A DNA stretch of 42,979 nucleotides from Hyphomicrobiales bacterium (GTDB lineage Bacteria > Pseudomonadota > Alphaproteobacteria > Rhizobiales > Aestuariivirgaceae): contig JANYHE010000027.1 in assembly GCA_025359215.1 (NCBI GenBank), positions 1 through 42,979 of the forward strand, written 5' to 3'. Every line of letters starts with the position of its first letter. Position 1 is the stretch's first letter. Below the pieces are notes generated by a model. That model was given only the letters and a program-made list of their open reading frames with translations, searched no databases and was not told the DNA's origin. Positions 11,800-41,650 of the stretch are shown here, piece by piece. Made by a program: the position numbers and the translations under genes.

Positions 11800-13005
11800 A
11801 TGACAGCCGCAACCAAGGCCAAAGCAAAACCACGCGCCCATTTTAGCGATTGGGAACAGACCAAAGTAACTGCCCTTTTGGTTCTGGCGGATGGAACAGT
11901 GATTGAAGGTGTGGGCTTTGGGGCCGAAGGTGAAGCAGTTGCCGAAGTGTGCTTCAACACCGCAATGACGGGCTATCAAGAAGTTCTCACCGATCCTTCT
12001 TACGCCGGACAGATTGTGACTTTCACCTTCCCGCATGTTGGCAATGTGGGTACCAATAATGATGATGGGGAAACAACGAATTTGGCCGCAAGTGCAGCTG
12101 TGAAGGGCTGCATCGTAAAAGCGTCTGTGACTGAACCCGCAAATTATCGCTCCACCCAGCATTTTAGCAAATGGCTGAAAGCCCGCGGCATCATAGGCCT
12201 CTCCGGAGTGGACACGCGCGAGCTGACCAATTTGATCCGCGAGAAGGGCATGCCCAATGGTGTGATCGCGCATAATTCTAAAGGCAAGTTTGATGTGAAG
12301 AAACTCACCGCCATGGCACGCGCCTGGAGCGGGCTTGAAGGCTTGGACTTGGCCAAGGATGTTTCCCTCGCCCAGCGCATGAGTTGGGATGAGAACTTGT
12401 GGGATTGGAAAGACGGCTACACAACGAGTGAAGGCGGCTTCAATGTTGTGGCCATCGACTATGGCATGAAACGCAATATTCTGCGCTGCTTGGTGAGTGC
12501 TGGTTGCGAGGTGACTGTGGTTCCCGCCAACGCCAAAGCCAACGATATTTTAGCGATGAACCCCGATGGCATATTCTTGTCCAATGGCCCCGGTGACCCT
12601 GCGGCCACAGGTGAATATGCGGTGCCCGAAATCAAAGCACTGGTCGCTTCCGGCAAGCCGATATTTGGCATTTGCCTTGGTCACCAAATGTTGGCTTTGG
12701 CACTGGGCGGCAAGACGATGAAGATGCACCAAGGCCACCACGGCGCCAATCATCCGGTGAAAGATTACACCACGAATAAGGTCGAAATCGTTTCCATGAA
12801 CCACGGCTTTGCAGTGGACCGCGCTTCGCTTCCTGCTGGCGTTGTTGAGACCCATGTGAGCCTGTTTGATGGTTCAAACTGTGGCATAGCCCTGGAAGGC
12901 AAACCCGTATTCTCCGTGCAGCACCACCCTGAGGCATCACCCGGCCCGCAGGATTCGCACTACTTGTTCAGGCGGTTTGTGGGGTTGATGGCAAAGGTCC
13001 AATAA
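11800..13005 (+). CDS. carA: Carbamoyl-phosphate synthase small subunit
   Basis: Glutamine amidotransferase subunit that supplies ammonia to CarB for carbamoyl phosphate, used in pyrimidine and arginine synthesis. It has 401 residues. The N-terminal CPSase domain (to about 200) holds GYQEVLTDPSYAGQIVTFT. The class I glutaminase domain has the triad Cys292 in GICLGHQ, His376 and Glu378 in HHPEASPGP. carB is not in the window; separation is common in this class. The last codons (LFRRFVGLMAKVQ) are duplicated in diverged form 1.8 kb downstream, so the current 3' end may be a replacement. Confidence 0.95.
   Translation: MTAATKAKAKPRAHFSDWEQTKVTALLVLADGTVIEGVGFGAEGEAVAEVCFNTAMTGYQEVLTDPSYAGQIVTFTFPHVGNVGTNNDDGETTNLAASAAVKGCIVKASVTEPANYRSTQHFSKWLKARGIIGLSGVDTRELTNLIREKGMPNGVIAHNSKGKFDVKKLTAMARAWSGLEGLDLAKDVSLAQRMSWDENLWDWKDGYTTSEGGFNVVAIDYGMKRNILRCLVSAGCEVTVVPANAKANDILAMNPDGIFLSNGPGDPAATGEYAVPEIKALVASGKPIFGICLGHQMLALALGGKTMKMHQGHHGANHPVKDYTTNKVEIVSMNHGFAVDRASLPAGVVETHVSLFDGSNCGIALEGKPVFSVQHHPEASPGPQDSHYLFRRFVGLMAKVQ
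12972..12991 (+). repeat. Left copy of 20-bp direct repeat in the carA 3' end
   Basis: This stretch encodes the RFVGLM part of the CarA C-terminus. It is identical over 20 bases to 14808-14827. Similarity continues upstream in both copies with mainly synonymous changes. Confidence 0.85.
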
Positions 13006-13153
13006 GGTTCAAATAAAAGAGTTTATCGACTTTATTGCTCGTCTTTTGTTTTTTATCAAACCACAAAAAACTCTGTGGCAATCTGCCTGAAAGGTTGCTC
13101 TATATGAGAGCTTATTCTTCTGAGTGATTTTCAGTTTGGAGACGAGATAGAAC

Positions 13154-14740
13154 ATGTTTTATTTTACATTTATTGGAAGGCGTTTGTGGCAGTTGCTCTG
13201 GGGATCTGGCCTGTTCGCATGCGCTGTTGCCAGCTTTCTCACTCTAACCTGCGCGCAGGCTCAAAGTGCCAATGCCCCAACTGGAAAATTAGAAAGACTG
13301 CTCCATTTAAACGGAAAGTCAAAACAGTTGCTAACAAAATTGTTAGCTCAATATCATCTGGAAAATGCTTGGGTTGAGTCTCAAAATGGGCAACGGGTTT
13401 GGGGCTATGCAGACCAGCACAGCATCCTACCGGGTCAACCCATAAAGATTTTTCTTAGTGTCAAGACTGGTTCAAAGTCTTTGATGGGGACGTTAAGAGT
13501 TCTGCGTATATCCGGTAAATACAATAGTTTGGTCAAAGAGATTGTTAGCCGACGGCAATCGGTTTCCGTTAACTCGCAGATCATTACTCCCGATGCTTCT
13601 GCCATCGGGCCGGAATGGACCAATGGTTTGGCCTTTGCTAAAACTGCCGACTGGAAGTCAGGATTGTATGTTGTCGATTTTGAACACACAGATGGTCGAC
13701 TTGATCGCAATGTTGCTTGGTTTGTTGTCAAACCCCAAGTGAAGACGGGTGATATTCTTGTAAAAATTGCGACCAATACTGTTGAAGCTTATAACGCTTG
13801 GGGCGGAAACTCGCTTTACCAATCGTCTAGCTTTGGCAGCCTGACATCGATGGTTTCGTTTGATCGACCATCAAAGCTTTTGAGCACACAAGATGCGTTC
13901 TATTTCATCCCTTGGGTTGAGACGTATGCGGCGGCAAGAGGACTAAAGGTGGATTATATTTCAGACTTTGATCTCTCGACCGATCCTTCAGTTCTTGATG
14001 GCTATAAGCTTTTTGTTTCACCAGGACATGACGAATATTGGACAAAGGAAATGTTTGATGCTGTCGAAAATCGTATATTTTCCAAAGGTCACAATGTGCT
14101 TTTTCTGGGTGCTAATGTTGCTTATTGGCAGGTTAGATATGTCGACATCAATCAGCCACCGGGCGGGAGCTTTTTAGGTCGACAAATGATTTGCTATAAA
14201 TCCTATAATCGCAATATTGACCCTATTGCGAGCCGGGTTGAAAATGAAAAGCAGGCCAAACTGATGTCAACAGGGCTTTTCCGATTTGGAGCACGAAGAC
14301 CAGAAACCATGTTGCTTGGTGTTGGCTATCAAGACTGGTTTGATGGCAAAAAGCGTGGGTATAGCTATTCTGTTGTGGATACAAGTTTGCCATTCTTCAA
14401 AGATACCGGCTTGAAAATTGGAGATAAATTCAGAGGTGTAGTTGGATATGAATGGGACAACAGCGACCCTGTAGGAGACGGAAAGCGTCTTTGGGATTCG
14501 AAATTATCAATGAACGCAAATATTCCACAAGGGAATATTCACGTGCTGTTCAATGCCAAGCCCGTTAGTGCTGCACTGAAAAAAGGGAAGGCTGAAGCAG
14601 TCTATTGGGAGTCACCAGCAGGAGCAAAAGTTTTCAGCGCCGGAACCATCTGGTGGAGTTGGGGACTTTCAAAAAAAGGGGTGGCAACCTCCCAGTTTTC
14701 CAAGTTCAATGAGAATCTGTTCAACTATATGCTGCAATAA
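13154..14740 (+). CDS. Exported N,N-dimethylformamidase beta-subunit-like protein
   Basis: A 528-residue protein resembling the large (beta) subunit family of N,N-dimethylformamidase, a C-N hydrolase with a Tyr/Glu iron site in characterised members. Here the N-terminus is a signal or anchor segment (about 10-36, ending AQAQ), so it is likely exported. A beta-sandwich-like region follows (about 70-195, WGYADQHSILPGQ). The catalytic-type domain is about 200-528, with NAWGGNSLY (215-222), SPGHDEYW (289-296), NVLFLGANVAYWQVR and GYEWDNSD (431-438). No small subunit gene is adjacent. The DNA looks more AT-rich than its neighbours, and the gene sits between two copies of the carA 3' end, which suggests acquisition. 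The true substrate is unknown. Confidence 0.75.
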   Translation: MFYFTFIGRRLWQLLWGSGLFACAVASFLTLTCAQAQSANAPTGKLERLLHLNGKSKQLLTKLLAQYHLENAWVESQNGQRVWGYADQHSILPGQPIKIFLSVKTGSKSLMGTLRVLRISGKYNSLVKEIVSRRQSVSVNSQIITPDASAIGPEWTNGLAFAKTADWKSGLYVVDFEHTDGRLDRNVAWFVVKPQVKTGDILVKIATNTVEAYNAWGGNSLYQSSSFGSLTSMVSFDRPSKLLSTQDAFYFIPWVETYAAARGLKVDYISDFDLSTDPSVLDGYKLFVSPGHDEYWTKEMFDAVENRIFSKGHNVLFLGANVAYWQVRYVDINQPPGGSFLGRQMICYKSYNRNIDPIASRVENEKQAKLMSTGLFRFGARRPETMLLGVGYQDWFDGKKRGYSYSVVDTSLPFFKDTGLKIGDKFRGVVGYEWDNSDPVGDGKRLWDSKLSMNANIPQGNIHVLFNAKPVSAALKKGKAEAVYWESPAGAKVFSAGTIWWSWGLSKKGVATSQFSKFNENLFNYMLQ

Positions 14741-14788
14741 GAAACTGACCTTAAGCAATTGTGTCTCTATGTGAACTTGACACGTGGG

Positions 14789-14850
14789 ATAGTCAATATT
14801 TGTTTAAGCGGTTTGTGGGGTTGATGGAGAAGGCTGTGAAGCAAATCTGA
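14789..14850 (+). pseudogene. Remnant of a second carA 3' end
   Basis: From about 14789 the plus strand reads in frame as DSQYLFKRFVGLMEKAVKQI and stop. This matches the CarA C-terminus DSHYLFRRFVGLMAKVQ. Codon differences are mostly synonymous (TCG/AGT, TAC/TAT, TTC/TTT), as expected for a once-functional coding end, not chance similarity. No carA sequence precedes it. It probably marks the original gene end displaced when the DMFase-like gene arrived. Confidence 0.8.
14808..14827 (+). repeat. Right copy of 20-bp direct repeat (carA remnant)
   Basis: Identical over 20 bases to 12972-12991, with a spacing of 1836 bases. Together the copies bracket the DMFase-like gene, as attachment-site-like or recombination-generated repeats would. 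Confidence 0.85.
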
Positions 14851-14888
14851 TGGAAACTAAATTCAATTTCCAAATGTTTAAGGTTTGG

Positions 14889-15263
14889 TCATTTGCAGGG
14901 GAAAGTTACTTCCAACCCCTTCAACAGCAAAAGATGCCAGACTCTAAAATCGTTTGATCTGAAAGTAGGGTTTTCTGATACATAACGCACTAAAATATCT
15001 GCGTATTGATCTCGCGTTATTCCAAGTTTTTTTGGTTGACAATAAAAAGGAGAATCTTCCCTCTCAGCTAATTCTGAGTTTGCCCATGCATAGGCCTCAC
15101 CTGCTGCAAAAATCATTTGCCTTAGCTTGTCGTCACCTTTTGATTTTTGCACGACATCAACAAAATCACCAAGCTTTAAACTTTGTTCCGCTTTCGCGGG
15201 GGTTCCAAATCCAACTTGAGTACTTATGACAATCACATTTATCCAAGTTTTCAGAACTATCAT
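14889..15263 (-). CDS. Rap1a/Tai-like immunity protein
   Basis: A 124-residue exported protein from ATG 15263; a GTG at 15266 is better spaced (eight bases) from GGAGG and may be used instead. The signal peptide ends near AKAEQ. The mature part matches the Rap1a/Tai pattern: an alpha-helical core with FAAGEAYAWAN, a mid Cys (FYCQPKKLGITRDQYADILVRYV) and a closing Cys (LKGLEVTFPC). Characterised members are periplasmic and neutralise type VI amidase effectors. No type VI genes or matching effector are in view, so it is an orphan. It lies convergent to the DMFase-like gene. Family assignment is by motif recognition only. Confidence 0.6.
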   Translation of the reverse strand: MIVLKTWINVIVISTQVGFGTPAKAEQSLKLGDFVDVVQKSKGDDKLRQMIFAAGEAYAWANSELAEREDSPFYCQPKKLGITRDQYADILVRYVSENPTFRSNDFRVWHLLLLKGLEVTFPCK

Positions 15264-15334
15264 CACCGTTTGTTCCTCCATCCCACTAAAAGCTATGATG
15301 ATGGTTCATTTATATGCGTTTGACGTTGAAGGCT

Positions 15335-15457
15335 AGGGACCTCATCCGTCGCTTCGCGCCACCTTCCCCAGAGGGGAATGGTGAAGTTTGTGATCGCACT
15401 TAACAAATTGCCCTTCTCCTTTGGAAAAGGTGGCCCAACGGGCCGGATGAGGTCCCC
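15335..15457. repeat. Palindromic intergenic repeat (RIME-like)
   Basis: The left arm GGGACCTCATCCG...CCACCTTCCCC and right arm AAAAGGTGGCCC...CGGATGAGGTCCCC are inverted copies around a short centre. The CCTCATCCG/CCACCTT pattern resembles intergenic mosaic elements widespread in Rhizobiales genomes. Part of a 348-base gene-free stretch (15264-15611). Confidence 0.65.
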
Positions 15458-15498
15458 AGTCGCACGCTCAGAATTAATCCACTGGACTCGCAGCCAGC

Positions 15499-15597
15499 AA
15501 CCCTTCGAGGCCGCAAGATTGCGGCACCTCAGGGTGAGGGGCGTTGTTGAACTCCCTCATCCAGAGGTGCGAGCAGTTTGCGAGCCTCGAAGGATTG
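15499..15597. repeat. Second palindromic intergenic repeat
   Basis: ACCCTTCGAGGC...GCACCTCAGGGTGAGG is answered by CCTCATCCAGAGGTGCGAG...GCCTCGAAGGATTGG in inverted order. This is another repeat type common between genes in Rhizobiales. Nothing else was seen in this intergenic stretch. Confidence 0.65.
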
Positions 15598-15611
15598 GTG
15601 GGTCAAGTAGG

Positions 15612-16088
15612 TTAGTTCCCCCTAATTGCCTTCTCAATCACCGCCACATCAATCTTCTTCATTTCCATCATGGCATCGAAGGCGCGTTTGGCTTTTTCGC
15701 CGCCTGCGGCCATGGCGTCGGTTAGCACCTGCGGGGTGATCTGCCAGCTTATGCCCCATTTGTCCTTGCACCAGCCACACTGGCTTTGCTGCCCGCCGTT
15801 ATTCACGATGGCATTCCAGTAACGGTCGGTTTCTTCTTGGTCCTTGGTTGAGACCTGGAATGAGAACGCTTCATTGTGCTTGATGAAGGGGCCGCCATTC
15901 AAGCCCACGCATGGCAGGCCCAAAACCGTGAATTCAACGATTAACGCATCGCCCGTTTTGCCACTTGGAAAATCACTGGGAGCAAAGTGAACAGCACCCA
16001 CTTTGCTGTCGGGGAAAGTCTTGCTGTAGAAGTTTGCCGCGGCTTCGGCATCTTTGTCGAACCACAGGCAGAGTGTTGCTTTGGACAT
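15612..16088 (-). CDS. VOC family (PhnB-like) protein
   Basis: A 158-residue protein of the vicinal oxygen chelate superfamily, PhnB-like subgroup. Landmarks are CLWFDKDAEAAANFYSKTFPDS at the start, LGLPCVGLNGG, HNEAFSFQVSTKDQEETDRYWNAI and CGWCKDKWGISWQITP. Members of this subgroup are widespread and mostly uncharacterised; the older label 3-demethylubiquinone methyltransferase is misleading. It is divergent from the ArsR-SRPBCC operon across 109 bases that hold two operator-like palindromes, so it may share that regulation. Confidence 0.85.
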   Translation of the reverse strand: MSKATLCLWFDKDAEAAANFYSKTFPDSKVGAVHFAPSDFPSGKTGDALIVEFTVLGLPCVGLNGGPFIKHNEAFSFQVSTKDQEETDRYWNAIVNNGGQQSQCGWCKDKWGISWQITPQVLTDAMAAGGEKAKRAFDAMMEMKKIDVAVIEKAIRGN

Positions 16089-16148
16089 GGCAAATTCCTC
16101 TTTTTGACCGAGACAGGAACATACAAAATATCTCGCATAAATAAAACA

Positions 16149-16166
16149 TTCAACTTAATGGTTGAC
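16149..16166. promoter_or_regulatory. Operator-like palindrome 1 for the ArsR regulator
   Basis: TTCAACTTAATGGTTGAC contains inverted arms TCAAC and GTTGA. It matches the second site 40 bases downstream, about four helical turns, in the divergent promoter between the VOC and arsR genes. Confidence 0.6.
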
Positions 16167-16187
16167 TATTGGTTCGCGCTCCTATAC

Positions 16188-16207
16188 ATTCAACTCTATG
16201 GTTGAAT
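16188..16207. promoter_or_regulatory. Operator-like palindrome 2 over the arsR start codon
   Basis: ATTCAACTCTATGGTTGAAT is a 7-bp-arm palindrome that includes the ATG of arsR at 16198. Binding here would block both transcription and the start region. Confidence 0.65.
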
Positions 16208-16560
16208 ATCAAACATCGCAACTTGATACCGTGTTTCACGCCCTTGGCGACGCCACGCGGCGGCAAATGCTTTCACAGCTGGCTTTGGGCGAGCGAACGG
16301 TCTCGCAATTGGCCCAGCCCTATTCCATGTCGCTGGCCGCGGCCTCTAAACATATTAAAGCTTTGGAGGCGGCGGGATTGGTGAAGCGCGAAGTGCGTGG
16401 GCGCACGCATGTTTGCACCTTGGCACCGGGGCCATTAGCAAACGCGCATCAATGGCTTGCCTTCTATGAAATATTCTGGACCAACCGTCTCGACAAGTTG
16501 GAAGCATTGCTGAAAGCCGAAGACGCCGCACAATCGAAATCAGGAGAGAAAAAGAAATGA
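16198..16560 (+). CDS. ArsR-family transcriptional regulator
   Basis: A 120-residue winged-helix DNA-binding repressor of the ArsR group usually found before SRPBCC genes. The start MVEYQTSQLDTVFHALGDATRRQ is typical of the group, and AAASKHIKALEAAGLVKREVRGR is the recognition helix and wing. No metal-site CxC is present, so it is not an arsenic sensor of the classical kind. No Shine-Dalgarno is seen before ATG 16198, which lies inside an operator palindrome; the transcript may be leaderless. The stop overlaps the next ATG (ATGA). It probably represses its own operon and perhaps the VOC gene. Confidence 0.88.
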   Translation: MVEYQTSQLDTVFHALGDATRRQMLSQLALGERTVSQLAQPYSMSLAAASKHIKALEAAGLVKREVRGRTHVCTLAPGPLANAHQWLAFYEIFWTNRLDKLEALLKAEDAAQSKSGEKKK

Positions 16561-17096
16561 GTATCGCCGCAAAAGACAATTTTGGCAAAGTGATTGCCCC
16601 TCGCGTGATTGAAATGCAGCGCCTGCTGCCGGGCCCCATCGAACGGATTTGGGATTACCTCACCAAAAGTGATTTGCGTGAGCAATGGTTGGCTTCTGGA
16701 GAAATGGATTTGAAAGTGGGTGCGCCTTGCGATCTTGTGTGGCATCACGACAAGACCACAACGCCCCCCGGCAAACTTCCAGAAACGATGACCTCGCCAG
16801 AGTCGCACCTGCCATCGCGCATCACAGCTTGCGACCCACCCCATAAACTCGGCTTCATGTTCTGGAGCGACAGCGAAGTGATTTTTGAGTTGAAGCCTGC
16901 GGGTGATAGGGTGTTGCTCACCCTCACCCACAAAAACCTGCCAAGCCGCGGCATGATGGTGGGGGTGAGCACTGGCTGGCATGCCCATCTCGATGTGTTG
17001 GCTGCGCGCGTTTCTGGCGAAAAGATCGAAAATTTCTGGGATCATTGGCGCGCTTATAAAGTGGATTATGAAAGCCGCATTCCGGCAGACGCTTAA
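16557..17096 (+). CDS. SRPBCC (AHSA1-like) domain protein
   Basis: A 179-residue START/SRPBCC-fold protein. The pattern QRLLPGPIERIWDYLTKSDLREQWLASGEMDLKVG, then KLGFMFWSDSEVIFEL, LLTLTHKNLP and GWHAHLDVLAAR, matches the AHSA1-like group. The fold binds hydrophobic ligands, but no ligand is known for these operon members. It is coupled to arsR by an ATGA overlap. A second SRPBCC gene follows 15 bases downstream. Confidence 0.87.
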   Translation: MSIAAKDNFGKVIAPRVIEMQRLLPGPIERIWDYLTKSDLREQWLASGEMDLKVGAPCDLVWHHDKTTTPPGKLPETMTSPESHLPSRITACDPPHKLGFMFWSDSEVIFELKPAGDRVLLTLTHKNLPSRGMMVGVSTGWHAHLDVLAARVSGEKIENFWDHWRAYKVDYESRIPADA

Positions 17097-17111
17097 GTGA
17101 GAGAGAACGCT

Positions 17112-17570
17112 ATGTCGGATCAAAATTTCACAACGTCATTCAGCTTGGTGCAAACACCAGAACAGGTATTTGCTGCCATCATCAATCCACGGGCTTGGTG
17201 GGGAGAAGGTATTATTGGCGAGACCGCCAAGCTTGATGGCGAATTTATCTATCGTCACGGCAGCTTTCATGTGAGCACCCAGAAAATCACTGAACTGGTG
17301 TCCAACAAAAAAGTGGTCTGGAAAATCATTCAGAGTGAACTGAGCTTTGTATCACACAAATCCGAATGGACTGGAACTGAGGTTGTTTTTGAAATTTCAA
17401 CGAAAGGTGGAAAGACAGAACTCAAAGTCACTCACGCCGGCCTTGTGCCGCAGTTTGAATGTTTTGAGGCCTGTTCTGGCGGCTGGAACTTCTATTTAAA
17501 TGACAGTCTGCGCGGCTTGATTGAAACCGGCAAAGGCGAACCCGATCCAAAATCTAAGTCAGCCGCTTAA
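17112..17570 (+). CDS. SRPBCC domain protein (second of pair)
   Basis: A 152-residue SRPBCC-fold protein, starting at ATG 17112 after GAGAGA. Features are FSLVQTPEQVFAAIINPRAWWGE at the start, KVVWKIIQSELSF in the middle and the late GWNFYLNDSLRGLIETGKG helix typical of activator-of-Hsp90-ATPase-like proteins. It is the last gene of the arsR operon, and its final 17 bases overlap the convergent NlpC/P60 gene. Ligand and role unknown. Confidence 0.85.
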   Translation: MSDQNFTTSFSLVQTPEQVFAAIINPRAWWGEGIIGETAKLDGEFIYRHGSFHVSTQKITELVSNKKVVWKIIQSELSFVSHKSEWTGTEVVFEISTKGGKTELKVTHAGLVPQFECFEACSGGWNFYLNDSLRGLIETGKGEPDPKSKSAA

Positions 17571-18402
17571 TCCGCGTAATGTCTTTGCCCTTAGCCTTGG
17601 TGCGTTCATTGGCAATTGCGAGCGGCTCACTCACCACCAGCATTTGATGGCCGCTGGCGTGGAGCAGTGTGGTTTCATTTTGCATGATGCCAACATGGCC
17701 TGCCCAGAAAATGAGATCGCCGCGCTTTACGCTATCAATGTTGTTGATGAGCAGCGGCGAACCCAATTCTGCTTCTTGCATGTCAGCATCGCGGGGGCAG
17801 GCCATTCCACAGGCGTGAAGCGAAGTTTGCACAAGGCCCGAACAATCAATGCCATGGGCGGATTTTCCACCCCAAAGGTAAGGCGTGTGAAGGAACTGTT
17901 CTGCCACTGCAACAAAATCACTTTGCCTGGTCGCAAGCACCTTGGCGTGATCCGCAAAAATAACCCCCCCCGTGGCCAGTTCGAAGAATTGATCTTGCAC
18001 AGCCGTCACTGAAATTTGCGCATTCATGGGCAGAAACTGCACGGGCTGCGTTTTGATGCTGGGCTTGGTATAGAGCAACGTTGATGGCACAGTGATGTGG
18101 TGAGTAGCTGCGTTAATTTTACCGCTGAGAAATTCTTGCTGAATATACCCAACATAGCCATCGCGTTGAAGCTGCACCCAAGCCCAACCCTCGGCCACAT
18201 CAAACACGCGCAGTGTTTCACCAAACAGCACTTGTGTTTCTTGCGGCGCATCAGGCGCAGGGGCACGGTGCAAAGTGGCGATCGGCGCATTCATTTGCAT
18301 GAGGCCGCCTTCGCGGAAAAGAGGCGCATCCACTTTGCCTTTCAGTTTCATATCAGCCAGATCATTGCGGAAAGCATTCAAACGTTTATCAAGCATCATC
18401 AT
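17554..18402 (-). CDS. NlpC/P60 family cell-wall peptidase with SH3 domains
   Basis: A 282-residue C40 peptidase, probably cleaving peptide bonds in peptidoglycan stems. Two bacterial SH3-like segments (about 40-95 and 100-155, for example WAWVQLQRDGYVGYI) precede the catalytic domain (about 160-282). Catalytic Cys187 is in GIDCSGLVQ, His236 in GHVGIM, and His248 in LLHASG. No signal peptide is obvious, as in several alphaproteobacterial relatives next to aminopeptidase genes. It is coupled to the upstream marR by an ATGA overlap, and the leucyl aminopeptidase gene lies just beyond. Together the neighbours suggest muropeptide turnover. Confidence 0.88.
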   Translation of the reverse strand: MMMLDKRLNAFRNDLADMKLKGKVDAPLFREGGLMQMNAPIATLHRAPAPDAPQETQVLFGETLRVFDVAEGWAWVQLQRDGYVGYIQQEFLSGKINAATHHITVPSTLLYTKPSIKTQPVQFLPMNAQISVTAVQDQFFELATGGVIFADHAKVLATRQSDFVAVAEQFLHTPYLWGGKSAHGIDCSGLVQTSLHACGMACPRDADMQEAELGSPLLINNIDSVKRGDLIFWAGHVGIMQNETTLLHASGHQMLVVSEPLAIANERTKAKGKDITRIKRLT

Positions 18403-40471: not shown

Positions 40472-41650
40472 ATGAATCAGATTCTCAACACCCTCACTCC
40501 TCAAGCCCAAGCTGAACCCGATAGCGGCATTGTTAAAGCCGCGATGTATGGTTTCACCAAACCCGGAATTATCCCGTTTTGGTCGGGCGAAGGCAATTTG
40601 CCCACACCTGAAGCCTTCTCTCGCCCAGCCACGGAAAGCCTGCTGAAGGGCGAAACTTTTTACACCTTTCAAGGCGGCATTCCGGAATTGCGTGGAGCGC
40701 TGGCGCGTTATCACACCAAGCATTTTGGCCGCGCCTTTGAGGCTGATAATTTCTTTGTGACCAGTGGTGGAATGCCTGCCATTCAAACTGCCATTCAAAT
40801 GATTGCAGGCGAAGGCGATGAGATTATCATCCCCACGCCGGCCTGGCCAAATTATGCAGGCTCGCTTCGCATTCAAGGTTCAAAGCCCGTTGAAGTTCCC
40901 ATGACCCTTGCCAATGGCAAATGGGCATTGGATTTAGACCGCCTGTTTGATGCGATTACACCACGTACGAAGGCCATTTGCCTGAACTCACCATCGAACC
41001 CCTTGGGATGGACAGCGACAAAGGCCGATCTCATCGCCATTCGCGATGCGGCGCGCAAAGCAGGCATTTGGATTTTGGGCGATGAGGTTTATTCGCGCTT
41101 TTATTACGGCGGCGCGCGTGCTCCATCATTCTTAGATGTGTGCGACACTGAAGAGCAGCTTTTGCTGTGCAATACATTTTCAAAAAATTGGGCCATGACG
41201 GGCTGGCGCGTCGGCTGGTTGCAAGCACCAAAGTTTTTGGGCCCCACCATCGAGCGGGTTATACAATATAATACAAGCGGCACGCCTGTGTTTCTGCAGC
41301 GCGGCTGCGCCGTAGCTTTGGATGAAGGTGAAGACTTCATCGCAGCACAAGTGGCCAAGGCGAAGGCCAACCGCGACGCTGTGGTAAGTGCACTCAAGGA
41401 TTTTCCGCAAATTCGACTGTCGATCCCTGATGGCGCATTTTACATGTTCTTCGGCATTGAAGGCATGACGGACTCAATGACAACTACGATGCGCATTATT
41501 GATGAGGCCAATGTGGGCTTTGCGCCGGGTGCTGCCTTTGGCCCCGGTGGCGAGGGCTTTTTGCGCATGTGCTTTCTGAAAGAAGAACACAAATTAGAGG
41601 AAGGATTGCAACGTTTTACCAACTGGTTAAAAAATAGTCAGCCTGTTTAA
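40472..41650 (+). CDS. Class I/II pyridoxal-phosphate aminotransferase
   Basis: A 392-residue fold-type I aminotransferase, likely using an amino acid and a 2-oxo acid. Cofactor residues are Asn176 in SPSNPLGW, Asp204 and Tyr207 in GDEVYSRFYY, Lys238 in NTFSKNWAMTGWR (Schiff-base lysine) and Arg246. The pattern resembles aspartate/aromatic-type enzymes such as AatA, but the substrate cannot be assigned. ATG 40472 has no clear ribosome site. The gene stands alone between the mscL terminator and a small-RNA candidate. Confidence 0.88.
   Translation: MNQILNTLTPQAQAEPDSGIVKAAMYGFTKPGIIPFWSGEGNLPTPEAFSRPATESLLKGETFYTFQGGIPELRGALARYHTKHFGRAFEADNFFVTSGGMPAIQTAIQMIAGEGDEIIIPTPAWPNYAGSLRIQGSKPVEVPMTLANGKWALDLDRLFDAITPRTKAICLNSPSNPLGWTATKADLIAIRDAARKAGIWILGDEVYSRFYYGGARAPSFLDVCDTEEQLLLCNTFSKNWAMTGWRVGWLQAPKFLGPTIERVIQYNTSGTPVFLQRGCAVALDEGEDFIAAQVAKAKANRDAVVSALKDFPQIRLSIPDGAFYMFFGIEGMTDSMTTTMRIIDEANVGFAPGAAFGPGGEGFLRMCFLKEEHKLEEGLQRFTNWLKNSQPV

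Follow-up and report, generated by a model that had tools for sequence, protein, structure and literature searches.

We analysed a stretch of 42,979 nucleotides (the window; overall G+C content 50.2%) from a Hyphomicrobiales bacterium, contig JANYHE010000027.1 of GenBank assembly GCA_025359215.1, a draft genome that comprises 148 contigs and 3.02 Mb. In this window the gene carA, coding for the small subunit of carbamoyl-phosphate synthase, is followed by a gene of the N,N-dimethylformamidase beta-subunit-like family (DMFA2_C) and then by a remnant of a second carA 3' end. We put at about even the chance that recombination anchored in carA has placed two alternative carA 3' flanks one behind the other. 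The locus contains the following features:

11800..13005, forward strand: intact carA, carbamoyl-phosphate synthase small subunit, matching PF00988 (CPSase_sm_chain, E 1e-48) and PF00117 (GATase, E 1e-55)
12951..13005, forward strand: present carA tail, holding a 20-base core at 12972-12991; copy 1 of the repeat is 12951-12997
13154..14740, forward strand: intact gene of 528 amino acids, N,N-dimethylformamidase beta-subunit-like family (DMFA2_C), matching PF20254 (E 2.3e-72)
14787..14850, forward strand: remnant of another carA tail, its frame open up to a stop, with the core at 14808-14827; copy 2 of the repeat is 14787-14833

The carA protein is 91% identical to that of the relative G022. 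Positions 12951-12997 and 14787-14833 form a direct repeat of 47 bases in the same orientation, with 81% identity and a spacing of 1836 bases, and both tails hold the identical 20-base core GCGGTTTGTGGGGTTGATGG. The present tail ends DSHYLFRRFVGLMAKVQ, and translation of the remnant from 14788 to 14850 gives DSQYLFKRFVGLMEKAVKQI and then the stop. Two statements of an earlier note on this DNA, that the carA end is repeated 1.84 kb downstream with a 20-base identical core and that the remnant has an in-frame ending, were thus borne out, the frame being open to the stop at 14850. As a control for chance, the last 90 bases of carA were compared by local score with the 10 kb downstream, using dinucleotide-preserving shuffles, and tail repeats were scored in a set of 110 carA downstream flanks (106 distinct, four being present twice) of up to 10 kb each, amounting to 910,586 bases, with 79 flanks of 9 kb or more and nine under 2 kb. 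The repeat in the window scored 29, while the maximum was 19 in 1000 shuffles and 20 in the other 109 flanks, which rules out a chance repeat and indicates a duplication. When a 41-base pattern was searched in the same genome with up to three mismatches, just two sites were found, carA and the remnant. The possibility that the remnant is a conserved gene in its own right was rejected by eye, since a stop at 14752 closes the frame; the likeness to carA at the remnant, also judged by eye, is confined to the last 21 codons.

Of the 36 other genus genomes, 29 have a readable carA end, and the two tails were compared with these; the remaining seven yielded no carA, or one that was partial or truncated at a contig end. 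These 29 ends were picked by the motif DSHY, with G015 and G052 omitted as both are cut by contig ends. A clade of nine genomes was defined from the tree of the carA 5' part (the window genome, G022, G003, G021, G013, G020, G041 and G042), with the addition of G023, in which carA is cut and which was placed by 87% protein identity. The present tail and the remnant share 36 of 45 bases, and the tails of the eight clade relatives, compared pairwise, share between 32 and 45 of 45. A value within this between-species range, together with the open frame of the remnant, suggests that the two tails may be species-level alleles and not the products of an old tandem duplication.

The remnant was closer than the present tail to 17 of the 29 relatives and the present tail was closer to nine, with three ties. 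Over 45 bases, the best match of the remnant was G022 (40 bases shared, compared with 35 for the present tail), which is the nearest relative by the carA 5' part (82% identity, sister support 99/96), while the best matches of the present tail were G021, G023 and G042 (37 each). Over 48 bases, the remnant matched G013 best (41), followed by G022 and G021 (40), and the present tail matched G021 best (39). LM is followed by E in the remnant, as in 23 of the 29 relatives, and by A in the present tail, as in two of them; the H-to-Q change of the remnant occurs in none. Changed codons summed over the eight clade relatives amounted to 32 synonymous and 16 non-synonymous for the remnant and to 37 and 22 for the present tail, and the eight relatives among themselves gave 126 and 42. 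Judged by these comparisons of bases and codons, the remnant appears to have served as a carA tail until fairly recently, and of the two tails it seems slightly the more native. Two expectations of the earlier note did not hold. The differences between the tails, described there as mostly synonymous, comprise three synonymous and three non-synonymous changed codons among 15, and the relative that the note expected, with an uninterrupted carA and an end similar to LMEKAVKQI, did not turn up, as none of the 29 readable ends matched this form.

The DMFA2_C match of the gene between the tails reached 244.9 bits against a cut-off of 27 and covered positions 28-370 of the 374 in the profile. The family name is no more than an annotation predicted from this profile, and the start of the protein looks, by eye, like a signal peptide. 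At E 0.001, a match to the protein was present in 12 of 41 genomes, its own included, the other 40 being relatives of which 24 are congeners. Outside its own genome the best match was in G025, of another family (31% identity over part of the protein, E 1.6e-15), and the best congener match had an E-value of 3.2e-12. Among 397 genomes drawn from the order, 11 including its own passed E 1e-20; the best homologue, 45% identical, was in G243, where inspection by eye of the reading frames in the surrounding 14 kb revealed no carA. A phage or plasmid origin of the gene was considered and set aside: no phage match was found, and none of the 166 matching plasmid records reached 60% identity, the 12 listed having 27-30%. 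The proposal that a dimethylformamidase-like gene was acquired next to carA is supported by its distant best match among the 40 relatives and by its AT-rich composition.

G+C content is 53.8% in carA, 35.8% in positions 13006-13153, 44.4% in the DMFA2_C gene and 42.2% in the remnant. Of the 15 lowest 500-base steps in the window, 14 begin at 13001-14901 and one at 41401. The gene between the tails is therefore more AT-rich than carA and the window as a whole, as had been noted before, but the AT-rich DNA is not confined between the tails. It begins at the carA stop, continues past the remnant and ends near 15330, so that the remnant has a central position in this patch and is not at its edge. 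To the right of the remnant are two further features:

14889..15281, reverse strand: AT-rich gene of 130 amino acids facing the remnant, weakly Rap1a-like (20.2 bits, below the Pfam cut-off of 27.7)
15331..15460, no strand assigned: palindromic repeat at the right edge of the AT-rich patch, with arms of 49 bases at 15333-15381 and 15411-15459

The gene at 14889-15281 has a G+C content of 39.9%, and positions 15331-15611, beyond the patch, have 58.4%. Among the 36 other genus genomes this gene had one weak match, located off the carA contig, and it is probably a second acquired piece. Both it and the DMFA2_C gene look acquired; if each of two flanks carried an acquired gene, AT-rich DNA would be expected to continue past the remnant, as was observed.

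Downstream of carA, the nine clade genomes carry mostly unrelated DNA: in the first kb, 2 of the 36 pairs share anything at E 1e-4, namely G003 and G013, with an antitoxin-like gene, and G021 and G042, with a short stretch. The gene upstream of carA had a match in 15 of 20 loci; of the other five, four (G022, G023, G024 and G017) are truncated near or within carA and one (G018) had no match in 1.7 kb. In the nearest relative, G022, carA is directly followed by the NlpC-like gene (named by eye) that lies at 17554-18402 in the window. The best explanation is that the carA downstream flank is a hotspot of gene turnover, with no recognisable tyrosine integrase in the clade.

Two further observations were made on these flanks. 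The window segment 13006-17553 (4.5 kb, with an ArsR-type gene and two SRPBCC-type genes, named by eye) is absent between carA and the NlpC-like gene in G022, and parts of it are present in G003, G021, G013 and G020. The gene shared by G003 (locus L053) and G013 (locus L055) is a CopG/BrnA-type antitoxin gene, 61% identical over 95 residues, which passes the Pfam cut-off in G003 and falls below it in G013; the rest of the first kb differs between the two.

Most likely, the second carA tail was left behind when DNA was exchanged with a related species by recombination, and does not mark the arrival of a new mobile element. The incoming DNA of such a species would have entered the cell and paired with carA by homology on one side, while the other side would have been joined inside the second carA tail, by end-joining or through a very short match (GGAT, 14787-14790). 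Flank 1 would consist of carA tail 1 and the DMFA2_C gene, and flank 2 of carA tail 2 and the gene at 14889. The new flank would have been added rather than swapped, so that carA would retain a complete tail and the other tail would remain as a scar. Replacement recombination with a relative's carA segment, one of two origins proposed in the earlier note, is the one that fits best, although the event appears to have been additive and not a replacement. The data show that a carA-derived duplication is present, that the genes are unusual in composition and patchily distributed, that the flank turns over and that no tyrosine integrase was found; the order of events, the native tail and the recombination route are inferred, with the remnant weakly the better candidate for the native tail. 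The reverse history, with the flank that carries the gene at 14889 as the newcomer, explains the layout equally well, and the tail comparison shifts the balance only slightly. A comparable process is homology-facilitated illegitimate recombination in natural transformation, in which one side pairs through homology and the other is joined illegitimately. The carA locus resembles it in that DNA would have been added beside a homologous anchor, and differs in that the process is here inferred from one locus.

Additive recombination at carA can also be set beside hotspots of horizontal transfer. Hotspots without mobile elements are described by Oliveira et al. (2017; PMC5635113) as diversified by recombination in the flanking core genes, and many of them are thought to turn over through recombination in the core genes at their edges. 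As in those hotspots, variable genes lie beside a conserved core gene, no integrase was detected and the content turns over between relatives. Unlike them, the exchange at carA looks additive and left a readable scar, the second core-gene tail; moreover, the carA comparison is between species and not strains, and core-gene recombination at carA is not proven. A second core-gene tail that resembles another species-level allele would be a readable scar of recombination at the edge of a core gene, and similar scars could be counted across genomes to estimate how often foreign genes are added rather than swapped.

Recombination inside carA itself was evaluated by three approaches. In a binned comparison, G022 was nearest to the window in carA codons 1-268 and other relatives were nearer beyond. 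In the carA tree, the 5' part pairs the window with G022 and the 3' part does not. Max-chi-square analysis gave p-values of 0.009 and 0.0055 in two of six comparisons with the window as query, and with G022 as query two of six were at or under 0.05.

Several results weigh against stacking by recombination. The carA 3' part does not reject the sister relation with G022 (approximately unbiased test, p-AU 0.441), and among the max-chi-square controls 1 of 27 fell under 0.01 (p 0.002) and 6 of 27, that one included, were at or under 0.05; a breakpoint inside carA, i.e. a mosaic carA, is not established. The tail comparisons depend on few bases, and the best match of the remnant shifts with the length compared. 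None of the relatives examined had the gene at 14889 directly behind carA, and no donor in which the DMFA2_C gene follows carA was found. Finally, the layout fits an insertion flanked by attachment (att) sites as well.

Such an insertion, the other origin proposed in the earlier note, is possible but rather unlikely. It would involve a small element with an attachment site resembling the carA tail and a tyrosine recombinase that acted in trans or has since been lost; carA would have been restored with the element's tail and the native tail moved to the far end, leaving a remnant like a cis-mobilizable element (CIME), and the element may have accreted next to an older piece holding the gene at 14889. 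Consistent with this, a direct repeat of the target site near the gene end is present on both sides of the insert (81% identity, 20 identical bases), the target gene stays intact and the somewhat more native-looking tail is at the distal end. There is a precedent in the Escherichia coli element e14, which has its own integrase and displaces the icd 3' end on integration. As with e14 and icd, a protein gene keeps working with a slightly different tail and the native tail would lie at the far end of the insert; unlike in that case, no integrase was found at carA.

To search for integrases, we built a tyrosine integrase profile from 16 integrases of the genus, which recovered four of four held-out integrases. 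None of the 110 downstream flanks contained a tyrosine integrase by this profile (serine recombinases and transposases were not searched for), the best match, at E 0.069, being below the inclusion threshold. This agrees with the statement of the earlier note that no integrase is present, for tyrosine integrases within up to 10 kb downstream of carA, and speaks against site-specific integration, as does an insert with one cargo gene and no mobility gene. Among the genus integrase matches listed, three share a contig with carA (G019, G004 and G041), and the nearest of them lies 18 kb upstream of carA.

The core sequence also argues against an attachment site. A 24-base pattern, with up to three mismatches, occurred in 6 of 37 genus genomes: the genome of the window has it both at carA and at the remnant, and the other five have it at carA only. 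The identical 20-base core is present within the ordinary carA of G021 and G042, two of the 29 congeners, and the core therefore needs no attachment-site explanation; for the same reason, the flanking direct repeat is not specific to an att-flanked element. The exact core was in no viral contig searched. Judged from titles and the beginnings of abstracts, no use of carA as an integration site was recognised among the papers listed, and a whole-word search found no publication joining carA with integrase, attachment site and genomic island. Of the proposed integration at the carA 3' end, the direct repeat thus stands, while the lack of tyrosine integrases in the flanks, the ordinary carA sequence of the core and the position of the remnant in the middle of the AT-rich patch count against it.

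CIMEs, as described in PMC5704250, have lost integration and transfer genes, keep attL and attR, and accrete in the att site with which a target gene ends, which would favour site-specific integration. Like a CIME as described there, the end of the target gene is directly repeated around an integrase-free segment and carA is intact. Unlike a CIME in that description, no element with an integrase was present at carA in the flanks tested, there is one cargo gene, and the carA repeat is 81% identical with a core that is ordinary carA sequence.

An assembly artefact, in which two strain variants of the carA flank would have been joined by the assembler, is improbable. In a draft of 148 contigs, two flanks in series could be such a misjoin; however, the left end of the repeat is at 14787, which leaves no long overlap at the junction by which an assembler could have been misled, positions 12700-15000 are present as a single copy in the genome, and the listed contamination is 0.06.

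We hold it equally improbable that the carA 3' end is a landing pad that is reused without an integrase of the element's own, where incoming single-gene flanks would stack with tails as separators. Each newcomer would bring a carA tail and shove the earlier tail and its cargo downstream. A third carA tail was not found in 14851-17560, where the best scores on the two strands were 14 and 15.5 and 100 shuffles reached 16 at the 95% level and 20 at most; its absence from the right edge of the patch speaks against such stacking. As a further alternative, the carA tail would have been duplicated in tandem within the lineage, the DMFA2_C gene would have been inserted between the two copies, and these would have diverged. 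This agrees with the common orientation of the copies but is very improbable, as the copies differ like the tails of different species (36 of 45 bases shared), yet the remnant frame is open, and so old a non-functional copy should probably carry stops or frameshifts, short as the stretch is.

Promoters and terminators in 12900-15400 showed no excess over shuffles. The palindromic repeat at 15333-15459, where the AT-rich patch ends, resembles the mosaic repeats found between genes in Rhizobiales. Within its left arm, a stretch of 28 bases occurs, with up to three mismatches, at five sites in the genome, including the arm at 15333-15381.

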